Origin: Pseudomonadota bacterium
Lineage (GTDB): Bacteria; Pseudomonadota; Gammaproteobacteria; Xanthomonadales; Rhodanobacteraceae
Assembly (NCBI GenBank): GCA_025351555.1
Contig: JANXVS010000146.1
Span: 1-11,518, forward strand
DNA length: 11,518 bases
Direction of reading: 5' to 3'
The position numbers were made by a program, and so were the translations under genes. Below the pieces are notes generated by a model. The model was given only the letters and a program-made list of their open reading frames with translations, ran no database searches and was not told where the DNA came from. Below, one piece after another: positions 2,724-11,518 of this stretch; the first letter of the stretch is position 1; each line of letters begins with the position of its first letter.

Positions 2724-2792
2724 GGGAGACGTCCCGATTGCCGACCCACAGGGATGTGGGAAGTGTCCGCAGGTGCCGGGAGCACCGGCGGA
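2724..2792. repeat. Cluster of three short hairpins
   Basis: Three adjacent palindromes: GGGA/TCCC around GACG (2724-2735); CCCACA/TGTGGG around GGGA (2745-2760); and TCCGC...GCGGA enclosing GGTGC/GCACC with loop CGGGA (2766-2792). All stems are perfect. The last two have a GGGA-type loop, as do hairpins at 8866-8880, 7119-7136 and 11366-11379. Confidence 0.7.
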
Positions 2793-2793
2793 C

Positions 2794-2915
2794 CGGCATA
2801 CCGGCGATCCATGACCATCGCCGATAGTGCTCCTGCATTTTCGGCATACCGGCGATCCGTGGCCATCGCCGAAAATTGCTCCTGCATTTCCGGCATACCG
2901 TCCATCCGTGGCCAT
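2794..2915. repeat. Tandem repeat, 48/49-bp unit, two full copies plus a partial
   Basis: Copies begin with CGGCATACCG at 2794, 2842 and 2891. The first two (48 and 49 bp) differ at only a few positions and one indel. The third is degenerate after about 25 bp and runs into the T-tract side of the terminator. Each full unit holds GGCGAT...ATCGCC (2803-2822 and 2851-2870) and CCGG-CATA-CCGG, so it can fold as two small hairpins. Open frames across it are by-products of the repeat, not genes. Confidence 0.8.
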
Positions 2916-8981: not shown

Positions 8982-9815
8982 CTATTTCTTCGGCGCGCGT
9001 GCCTGGGCGGTGTTAAACGCCTGTTGCGCGTGGGCATAGACGCTCGTGGCGTCGTCGGCAGAAACTTCACTGCTCTGACCGCTGGCCATGCGTTCCTTGA
9101 GCACGAGCTGACCGCTGTCGTCCCAGCCAAGCCTGGTAGTGGCATAAGGACGTCCGCCGCCGGCAGCGGATTCCTCTTTCACTACCACCCACGGCTTGTC
9201 GGTCAGGAACGCCATCTTCAGCGTCACGCGGCCCTTGTCATTGTCCAGATCGGTGATCTCGCGCACTACCTTGACCTTGCCGTTGGATACGAAGGCATCC
9301 CAGGCGACCGACGAAGTATCGTTCATCGAAGTGCCGCTGATCTGCTTGAACGAGCCGATCTGGGCGTAGGCTTTCTTGTACTCGTCGAACATCTTTTCCG
9401 CTGGTGTCGGCTCGGGCGCAACGGTGATTTCCACGCGCGCAGGTGCCTTGTTGGTCAGCACCGGAGATTGCAACACCGGCAAATAGCGACGATCGCCATC
9501 GATGAGCACGGCGTCGACGGCGTAGGTGCGCTTGGGATCAACCTGCTTCGGGTCGATCGGAAGGTTGAAGTTGATCGGTGGGCGGCTGGCGTTGGCGATA
9601 ACGGTCTGCGCCAGTATGGTTGCCGGCTGGGCGACATCGATCACCTTCAGCTCAACGCGGGCCTGATTGGAGAGTTCGCGCGGATCACGCAGCACGATCG
9701 TGCCGCTGACGCTGCTGGCGATCGGAGCGGCGGCTGGTGGCGCCGGCGGCGGTGGCGCATTGCAGCCTGCGAGCAGGCCCAGTCCCAGCAACGTCGTGAG
9801 AATTCTTGTTTTCAT
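8982..9815 (-). CDS. Outer-membrane lipoprotein with YbaY-type domain
   Basis: 277 residues. Lipoprotein signal peptide MKTRILTTLLGLGLLAGC has lipobox LAGC with Cys18 as the lipidated residue; Asn follows rather than Asp, so outer-membrane sorting is expected. A Pro/Ala-rich spacer (NAPPPPAPPAAAP) leads to a YbaY-like beta domain at about 33-130: SGTIVLRDPRELSNQARVEL, then VIDVAQPATILAQTVI, then PINFNLPIDPKQVDPKRTYA. That domain is known from E. coli YbaY and putative pilotin-like lipoproteins, and its function is poorly defined. Residues ~131-277 (from PTPAEKMFDEYKKAYAQIG) are an additional mixed alpha/beta region I do not recognise. The start at 9815 is fixed by AAGGAG (9823-9828) 7 nt upstream; the longer frame from 9869 adds residues before the signal peptide. 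It lies 187 nt downstream of glyS on the same strand. Confidence 0.85.
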   Translation of the reverse strand: MKTRILTTLLGLGLLAGCNAPPPPAPPAAAPIASSVSGTIVLRDPRELSNQARVELKVIDVAQPATILAQTVIANASRPPINFNLPIDPKQVDPKRTYAVDAVLIDGDRRYLPVLQSPVLTNKAPARVEITVAPEPTPAEKMFDEYKKAYAQIGSFKQISGTSMNDTSSVAWDAFVSNGKVKVVREITDLDNDKGRVTLKMAFLTDKPWVVVKEESAAGGGRPYATTRLGWDDSGQLVLKERMASGQSSEVSADDATSVYAHAQQAFNTAQARAPKK

Positions 9816-10002
9816 GGTGCATCTCCTTGTCTGGCGCTGGCGCGACCTTGCGCCGTGTCTTGAATCCAATTGTCGTTGTCTTACCCTGAACGGTGACGAT
9901 GCGCAGACGCAAATCGTCTCAACGCAAATTCTAGCTGTTAAACCGGCTCACGAAAATACGAATATCTTCGTAAAGCCGATGTGTACACGCGTTTGTTGAA
10001 AT
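9816..10002. other. Gap between glyS and the lipoprotein gene
   Basis: 187 nt, AT-richer than its surroundings. On the minus strand ACGAA/TTCGT around GATA (9958-9971), followed by ATTTT, could be a weak glyS terminator. Further on, a TAGAAT hexamer (complement of 9928-9933) could be a -10 for the lipoprotein gene, but no good -35 is visible. No small gene was found. Confidence 0.35.
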
Positions 10003-11280
10003 TTATTGGCTTTGCAGCAACGAAATATCGGCCACATACAGGAACATGCGCCGCAATTGGCTCAGCAGGGCCAGGCGGTTTTGCCGTTTTGCCGTGTCCT
10101 CGACCATGACCATGACGGCGTCGAAATACGCATCAACCGGAGCACGCAGATTCGCCAGCGCACGCAAGGTCTCGATGTAGCGGCCTTGCGCGACTAGGGG
10201 CGCGATCGCGGTGGCGGCGGCTTCGATCGCGCGATGCAGCTCGCTTTCCGCGCCCGCGTCGAGCAGGGAGACATCGACCGGACCGGAACGAGCATCACCG
10301 GCCTGGCGCAGGATATTGCCGATACGCTTGTTCGCTGCGGCCAGCGCCTGCGCTTCGGGGAGTCGGGAAAATTCCCCAACGGCGCACAGGCGGCGGTCGA
10401 AATCGACCAGGGTTTCCACGTCGATCGCGCGCACGGCATCGAATTGATCGCTGCCAAAACCACGTTCGGCGTAATAGCTGCGCAGGCGATCGAAGACGAA
10501 ATCGCTGAGTTCGGCTGTCAGAGCATGCTTTTCGTCCGATGGCGAGGTTGCGGCTGGCGCGGGGGCACCGGTTTTCTGCAGTTTTTGCGTTGCGCGCACG
10601 GCCGGCAGCAACTCGACGGCTTCGCGCAGCAAGGCTTCCAGATCCAGTTCCATCTCGCCTTCGATCAAGGTGCGCGCCAGTCCCAGCGCCGCGCGCCGCA
10701 GCGCGAATGGATCCTTGTTGCCGGAAGGCTTCATGCCGACGGCGAAGATGCCGGCAAGCGTATCCAGGCGTTCGGCCACGGCCAGCACTTGGGCAATTTT
10801 CCCTTTTGCCACAGCGTCGCCGGCAAAGCGCGGACGGTAGAATTCGTCCAGCGCCTGCGCGACTTCGGAATTTTCTCCGTGCGCGGTGGCGTAGTAGCGG
10901 CCCATCACGCCTTGCAATTCGGGGAATTCGCCGACCATGCGCGTCATCAAGTCGCATTTGCTCAACGCCGCCGCGCGTGTGGCCAGCGCCGCATCGACGC
11001 TGACGCCGGTATCGCGCAAGCGATTGGCGATCACGCGTGACAGTTCCGCCACGCGCACGCACTTGTCCCAGACGCTGCCAAGCTGCTGCTGGTAGGTGAC
11101 GGATTTGAGCGCTTCCTGCTGGGTCTGCAGCGGCGTTTTCAGGTCTTCGTCGTAGAAGAATTTCGCATCGGCAAAGCGCGGCCGGATCACGCGCTCGTAG
11201 CCTTTGCGGATTTCGCTGGGATCCTTTGATTCGATATTGGCGACGCCGATGAAATGCTCGGTCAGCTTGCCGTCTGCGTC
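10003..11280 (-). CDS. glyS: Glycyl-tRNA synthetase beta subunit, C-terminal part only
   Basis: Beta subunit of the alpha2beta2 glycyl-tRNA synthetase, needed for tRNA recognition during charging of tRNA-Gly. About 425 of the usual ~690 residues are visible. Typical features in order: DADGKLTEHFIGVANIESKDP; RKGYERVIRPRFADAKFFYDEDL; QQQLGSVWDK; LSKCDLMTRMVGEFPELQGVMG; YRPRFAGD; AERLDTLAGIFAVGMKPSGNKDPFALRRAALGLAR (HD-like region); AANKRIGNILRQ; and the C-terminal DALR-type anticodon-binding helices ending FLYVADISLLQSQ. The N-terminal ~260 residues, including the normal lead-in to DADGK, are not present upstream. There the frame runs without a stop into a 147-bp palindromic repeat and then a prmA-like fragment. 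The fused frame continues to the window end, and a GTG at 11487 gives a 494-residue product that is unlikely to be a working subunit. Confidence 0.93.
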   Translation of the reverse strand, partial: DADGKLTEHFIGVANIESKDPSEIRKGYERVIRPRFADAKFFYDEDLKTPLQTQQEALKSVTYQQQLGSVWDKCVRVAELSRVIANRLRDTGVSVDAALATRAAALSKCDLMTRMVGEFPELQGVMGRYYATAHGENSEVAQALDEFYRPRFAGDAVAKGKIAQVLAVAERLDTLAGIFAVGMKPSGNKDPFALRRAALGLARTLIEGEMELDLEALLREAVELLPAVRATQKLQKTGAPAPAATSPSDEKHALTAELSDFVFDRLRSYYAERGFGSDQFDAVRAIDVETLVDFDRRLCAVGEFSRLPEAQALAAANKRIGNILRQAGDARSGPVDVSLLDAGAESELHRAIEAAATAIAPLVAQGRYIETLRALANLRAPVDAYFDAVMVMVEDTAKRQNRLALLSQLRRMFLYVADISLLQSQ

Positions 11281-11427
11281 GGCCGCTCCTGCGCCTCCTG
11301 CGACGCGCATGGATGCGCTAGTGTCGCGGGAGGCAGGATGCCGGGAGCGACCGCCCGCGGCACTCGTACCTCCCTGTACAGCGGCCGCTCCTGCGCGTCC
11401 TGCGCCCGCGGCACTAGTGCCTCCTTG
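11281..11427. repeat. 147-bp palindromic repeat block at the glyS/prmA junction
   Basis: Packed with hairpins: GCGCAT/ATGCGC around GG (11305-11318); GTCGC/GCGAC enclosing GGCA/TGCC with flanking GGGA on both sides (11323-11351); GTAC/GTAC around CTCCCT (11366-11379); GCGC/GCGC around GTCCT (11393-11405); palindrome GGCACTAGTGCC (11410-11421); and GTGC/GCAC around CTCCTT (11417-11430). It has internal direct repeats: 11281-11302 with 11383-11404 (21/22 identical) and 11352-11373 with 11403-11424 (20/22). Read on the minus strand it adds 49 codons without a stop, low-complexity Gly/Ala/Arg/Ser-rich (QGGTSAAG twice, RAGAAA, GGAGAA). Confidence 0.85.
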
Positions 11428-11518
11428 CACGTCGGTCATTACTGCGTCGAAATTCTGGGGCAGGCACAGTGCGAGGCGATCGGCCACCCCGTTGCGTTCG
11501 GCGTTGTCGATGGATGCG
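11428..11518 (-). pseudogene. prmA: Fragment resembling ribosomal protein L11 methyltransferase PrmA
   Basis: The 30 codons at the window edge read ASIDNAERNGVADRLALCLP and then QNFDAVMTDV. This matches the PrmA stretch recalled from E. coli (DNAERNGVSDRLELYLP...ADV), which lies just after the SAM-binding segment and before VVANILAG. PrmA trimethylates L11 at several sites. Nothing in GlyS matches here. The PrmA reading stops at the repeat instead of continuing into VANILAG, so if the sequence is correct this copy is interrupted. The call rests on 30 residues, and upstream sequence is outside the window; it is a truncated gene or one half of an assembly chimera. Confidence 0.65.

Follow-up and report, generated by a model that had tools for sequence, protein, structure and literature searches.

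Short dispersed hairpins are known in bacteria from the REP/RAYT systems, in which REPs are extragenic. Other palindromes are read as parts of proteins. In the accessible portions of the literature, Rickettsia palindromic elements (RPEs) are described as 105–146 or ~150 bp long and as lying in frame in many genes (PMC2229807, PMC10969869), protein-coding palindromic repeats are reported for Wolbachia (Ogata 2005, as cited in PMC2229807), and the MITEs ERIC, YPAL and the 107-bp Correia/NEMIS, about 100–200 bp long and several of them with target duplication, are said to form in-frame fusions with genes (PMC2229807). Here we describe a palindromic element of 51 nt, of which we found no account in Xanthomonadales or Rhodanobacteraceae in the literature searched, where subscription papers were mostly outside reach. 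We consider it highly probable that this element belongs to a dispersed two-hairpin family inserting into coding genes, and that the gene fusion in which it came to light is an assembly chimera.

The window, that is, the whole stretch analysed (11,518 nt), is the entire contig C603 of a MAG (G000) that comprises 603 contigs and is 80% complete and 2.5% contaminated; position 11518 is therefore a contig end, and it is at this end that a prmA and a glyS sequence are joined. A minus-strand ORF of 504 aa with an open 5′-end (11517–10003) runs from 30 residues of PrmA (ribosomal protein L11 methyltransferase; 11428–11517, minus strand), probably of another organism of the family, through a palindromic array of 153 nt, or 51 codons (11281–11433, minus strand; unit register 11434–11282), into the C-terminal part of GlyS (glycyl-tRNA synthetase beta chain; 10003–11280, minus strand), which starts with DADGKLTEHFIG. 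Both gene identities agree with the initial annotation, which had counted 49 repeat codons instead of 51. It had also described GlyS as lacking its N-terminal part, and indeed the match begins at ORF residue 79 and covers only positions 286–684 of 684 in TIGR00211 (456.6 bits), with PF02092 (positions 286–535) starting at residue 82. The 30 PrmA residues give no Pfam match (PF06325) at such short length. When they were compared with PrmA of family genomes, as had been suggested, identity reached 73% over 30 residues and 78% over 27 (G018 and G222 73%, G121 70%), the fragment aligning with '..DNAERNGVADRLALxLPxDFDA..ADVF(I/V)ANILAG' of family PrmA.

The array (11433–11281) is strongly self-complementary (MFE –94.6 kcal/mol), so its palindromic nature, recognized from the start, is confirmed, and it resolves into three units of 51 nt. 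Two are A units, which match a unit seen in other genomes at 46/51 and 41/51, and the remaining one is a B unit in inverted orientation. The first A copy (11384–11434, plus strand, A forward; 46/51 to reference A) reads DVQGGTSAAGAGRAGAA on the coding strand. The second A is split into two parts (11353–11383 and 11282–11301, plus strand) by element B (51 nt; 11302–11352, minus strand; coding strand GRSRHPASRDTSASMRV), which is nested within it in the opposite orientation. Excising B by script restored the second A at 41/51, with no target duplication around B. This three-unit structure is not due to chance. Elsewhere in the window, three ~49-nt repeats around GGCATACCGGCGATCC..GTGGCCAT (2780–2915, plus strand), a family distinct from the 51-nt element, occupy the gap between a short ORF (2291–2668, no Pfam match) and mnmG, and a protein with a YscW-type domain (PF09619) is encoded at 8982–9869 on the minus strand.

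Insertions at the same GlyS site are known at the protein level, element DNA in glyS having been seen in the window alone. We took the best 120 of 7993 protein matches to the window ORF and parsed 119 of them at NQKF..|..LTEHFIG (P0014 starts too late); because the query itself contained the element, these best 120 matches give no prevalence. The loop has 9 residues in 99 of the 119 and 26 (+17) in 12; it is longer in P0012 (43, +34) and P0017 (60, +51), and the remaining six measure 14 (two), 20, 21, 24 and 33 residues. Ten of the 12 inserts of +17 match the element peptide at 11–17 of 17 positions, while those of P0019 and P0022 match it at 8–9 of 17 only and may be decayed or unrelated. P0001, whose GlyS is 90% identical to that of the window, reads MFDVQGGTSAAGTGCAGAAAADGKL at the site, and the GlyS of P0012 carries the nested A/B unit of the window as 34 residues, the window having one A more. 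P0014 is a 351-aa GlyS piece on a 12,927-bp contig, 98% identical to that of the window over 70% of the query, and perhaps represents the same population assembled a second time.

Among relatives, 29 GlyS loci were read at this site, and all lack the element: 27 are uninterrupted, one has an N gap (G012) and one an unrelated longer loop (G006). The latter two belong to the same genus as the MAG; the loop of G006 (L023) reads ISTYLNQPVPVGIKAALGQGDETITFYAELSSWFFG at the element site, and in G012 (L024) the N occupy 599–601, also at the element site, with about 16 residues missing, a gap that a hairpin could have caused. A search of the 15 remaining genomes of the genus detected no copy of the repeat at E 1e-6 (three candidates per genome scored), and one of them, G010, gave a single weak match.

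In PrmA, the loop could be read in 157 of 233 family genomes (under a stricter pattern, a recount covered 148, missing 9, with the same lengths). It has one length in 132 genomes, is extended by 17 residues in nine and by 1 in five, and shows +2, +5, +6, +8, +9, +14, +15, +16, +26, +34 and +51 in one genome each. By DNA, the full element (at least 41 of 51) is present in 12 of the 157 prmA genes, before DVF(I/V)ANILAG: as three units in G220 (+51), as two in G210 (+34), at +16 in G114, and at +17 in G209, G202, G113, G144, G140, G126, G211, G204 and G226. The orientation is the same in ten of these genomes and reversed in G209 and G211; the reversed orientation was also found at the protein level in further PrmA (P0122, P0123, P0124, P0126 and P0128). 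A second PrmA site, before VVVRLDPG, is lengthened by 17 residues in P0122 and P0128, where the insert is read in another frame, and by fewer residues in P0125. The +26 insert of G034 (L132) is partly element-like, at best 27/51 by DNA. The initial annotation had pointed out that a join of two repeat-bearing loci would imply in-frame copies of the repeat in both genes, and the GlyS and PrmA homologues support this well.

A GlyS family search of the MAG found only the piece in the window, and its single full-length PrmA match, on contig C75, is intact, free of the repeat and 80–81% identical to the nearest members of the genus; four other PrmA matches are partial and weak. An intact prmA was thus located elsewhere in the genome and an intact glyS was not; a second glyS may be missing since the MAG is 80% complete. 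The PrmA fragment of the window is 59% identical to C75 PrmA over 29 aa, compared with 73–78% for the best PrmA of other genera. Being unlike the MAG's own prmA and closer to other genera, the fragment looks foreign, a feature that the initial annotation missed along with the occurrence of the 17-codon element elsewhere, while its gene identities and the chimera it considered stand. The exact PrmA fragment was absent from the 9 matches out of 8000 scored candidates, and besides the copies in the window no repeat copy was found in the MAG at a good score (six further matches had E 0.2–0.8). The GlyS segment of G001 equals that of P0011 (recorded as Rudaea sp.), and the PrmA segment of G209 (genus g18) that of P0125 (recorded as Rhodanobacter sp.). 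A Rudaea-like glyS joined, at a repeat and at a contig end, to a prmA resembling that of another genus of the family is what errors of metagenome assembly usually look like. Judged from these sequences, the assembly most likely produced a chimera of two species at a repeat that they share, the best supported of the options first listed: an element in the glyS of the MAG and one in a foreign prmA would have merged at the contig end. The real glyS of the MAG would then carry the array, with the breakpoint within the first A copy or at its edge, because this copy could belong to either parent gene.

An unlikely alternative is that the array belongs to the foreign prmA only and was stuck to an element-free glyS via CGACG, a short stretch common to both, through a chimeric read or a bad end extension. 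The repeat seems to be missing from same-genus genomes, the PrmA fragment and the array together make up the final ~240 nt, about one read long, and the array terminates where PrmA copies terminate ('..GCGGCCGAC'), all as such an extension would have it. It is opposed by the element-like insert at the exact site in P0001, in 12 further GlyS of the 119 parsed and in P0130, and by the same nested A/B unit in the GlyS of P0012. A real rearrangement, in which recombination between element copies fused prmA and glyS, is very improbable: dispersed near-identical repeats are able to recombine and the contig was assembled in this form, but glyS would be broken in a genome that has a single GlyS piece and a different, intact prmA, the PrmA fragment is unlike the PrmA of the genus, and we found nothing in support of this event.

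Unit A folds into two hairpins. Base pairing was tested in 61 distinct copies, three of them B-like, against 500 shuffles. Paired cells amounted to 94.8% (shuffle mean 85.1), double changes occurred in 9 of 15 pairs (mean 4.5), and 97 cells had double changes (mean 21.9); each of these values was reached by 0/500 shuffles, while the number of extra pair types was not clearly above them (10/500). For 26 representatives the first three measures again gave 0/500 and extra pair types 58/500; for 10 representatives the four measures were reached by 0, 1, 0 and 1 of 500 shuffles; and among 55 copies with at least 40/51 identity the first three held, with 59/500 for extra pair types. Sliding the partners dropped pairing to 18–54% of cells, a comparison biased toward the structure because the structure was taken from one of the test sequences. 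Thus, the two hairpins of the unit are kept by compensatory changes. The copies are read in four frames and both orientations, giving four unrelated peptides while pairing is kept, so it is the base pairing and not the peptide that is conserved. That the insert is instead a selected 17-residue peptide module, spread as protein sequence and not as a DNA element, is hardly credible despite its constant length and its being in frame wherever it lies in genes, given these four unrelated peptides from two orientations and four frames and the 15 of 54 loci, from the core search below, at which no coding-like ORF spans the element. Selection for open frames was considered and dropped, since random 51-mers of 75% GC mostly have 4–6 open frames. 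Three matches to two Rfam miRNA models (30.8 and 28.6 of 268 bits, E 0.0016–0.005 for this pair, and 21.1 of 90 bits) were all far below gathering scores; we rejected miRNA identity and take the matches as a generic effect of long hairpins.

Repeat matches led to 30 further Pfam-named ORFs, with an A or B unit inside 29 of them (not in L051); the loci left out of this set were L138, L046, L050 (no Pfam match), L049; L147, L047 (no coding-like ORF). UvrA hosts the element in seven genomes of five genera at one site (judged by eye), and an HrpA-type helicase, presumably so named rightly from its Pfam domain, in four genomes at one site. DnaE, tryptophan halogenase and a GTPase that we take from its Pfam domain to be YihA/EngB (three each) likewise have one site each, while the sites differ among three HrpB. 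Further hosts are GcvP, GcvT, trehalase, an aromatic amino acid lyase, a PF01494 protein and a GH31 enzyme, to which protein matches add a PpiC-type protein and exonuclease I (PF08411; presumably SbcB). The dnaE of G181 (L149) has two B units with a run of N between them, in frame. The composite of an A split by an inverted B recurs at the protein level in two unrelated proteins, P0121 and P0127, and may for this reason itself be a mobile unit.

An exact search for the 30-nt core in genomes of 84,980 species returned 54 stretches, some of them from MAGs and possibly mis-binned. By record title, these were 10 from Rhodanobacter, 8 from Dyella, 4 from other Rhodanobacteraceae, 12 assigned to Gammaproteobacteria at the class level, 7 to Proteobacteria or Pseudomonadota at the phylum level, and 13 from Pseudolysobacter, Lysobacterales, Stenotrophomonas, Luteimonas, Thermomonas, Pseudoxanthomonas, Solimonas, Ectothiorhodospiraceae, Acidiferrobacterales and Deferrisomatales. 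A coding-like ORF covers the first match at 39 of the 54 loci and none does at 15, by a base-composition rule that is not proof of coding. These ORFs include PrmA (5 with the match inside, 3 more beside it), HrpA (7), UvrA (2) and halogenase (2), and ten others: homogentisate dioxygenase (3), S9 peptidases (2), UvrD, PurL, nitrate reductase beta chain, NnrS and a DnaG-like protein. Matches at E 1e-6 occur in 59 of the 233 genomes of the family (three candidates per genome scored). Copy number is low: 14 genomes, searched at no more than 3 mismatches of 28, had 0–4 copies each, and 10 of them had a match (reversed control 0). Phage and plasmid records gave no match at E 1e-5. We conclude that many bacteria of soil and water carry the 51-nt hairpin in frame and at recurrent sites in their core genes.

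The distribution suggests that a dispersed 51-nt (17-codon) two-hairpin family of Lysobacterales and some other Gammaproteobacteria inserts into coding genes. Unit A is 51/51 identical in the prmA of G144, G140 (g19) and G126 (g17), genes that are elsewhere 78.4–82.6% identical, and from this we infer that the element is mobile. The G202/G204 pair, with prmA flanks 89.7% alike and elements matching at 44/51, does not fit recent mobility, and gene conversion between copies could instead have made copies identical. No target duplication is visible in filled and empty prmA pairs of different species, or around the nested B. We therefore picture a short hairpin element moved by some enzyme, which would insert 51 nt with no visible duplication and survive in genes tolerating a 17-residue spacer; the insertion sites, placed by alignment, are probably exposed loops that accommodate it, and tandem growth and nesting would come afterwards. 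The length of 51 nt is divisible by three and stops are scarce in the GC-rich sequence, so that an inserted copy would be read through as a 17-residue spacer. A resident Y1 transposase (PF01797) was considered as the mobiliser and rejected, as its presence does not track the element: it was found in 4 of 7 element-bearing genomes (absent from G113, G200 and G140), in 8 of 9 genomes without a repeat match at E 1e-6 and in 1 of 3 same-genus genomes. This PF01797 survey of element-bearing, element-free and same-genus genomes revealed no mobilising enzyme. More tentatively, a mobile 17-codon hairpin of many genera, possibly reaching beyond the order, might insert without duplication at fixed sites of core genes, the housekeeping proteins of these free-living hosts growing in 17-residue quanta through repeated target choice and not selection alone. 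If so, its fixed-site targets would include an aminoacyl-tRNA synthetase, enzymes of DNA repair and replication, and helicases. The hosts being culturable, the mode of movement, the repeated sites and the tolerance of enzymes to sudden 17-residue insertions are open to experiment. The join in the window is also a warning that elements of this kind may lead metagenome assemblers to fuse genes from different species.

Compared with the systems introduced above, the element resembles REP as a short dispersed hairpin and differs from these extragenic sequences in having a coding-like ORF over 39 of 54 loci, by the base-composition rule, and a Y1 transposase that does not track it. As far as the available descriptions go, it is small and readable through as part of a gene like the ERIC, YPAL and Correia MITEs, and unlike them measures 51 nt and shows no target duplication; the Wolbachia repeats are likewise protein-coding palindromes, in a different host group. 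The closest parallel is with RPEs, which, as described, share with it the small palindromic unit lying in frame inside conserved protein genes; the element is also hairpin-forming, with two hairpins and compensatory changes. It would, by this analogy, be a mobile coding palindrome working as they do. We have not filed it as an RPE because its length (51 nt, with composites of 102 or 153 nt, against 105–146 bp) falls outside their range, the two having been compared by description rather than by sequence. On that same descriptive basis it is further set apart by its four frames and both orientations, by the same sites recurring across genera and by its hosts among Gammaproteobacteria. The best-known coding palindromes are those of Rickettsia and Wolbachia, bacteria that live inside cells and whose genomes are shrinking, whereas here a much shorter element occupies core genes of free-living hosts, among them Rhodanobacter, Dyella and Rudaea-like MAGs.
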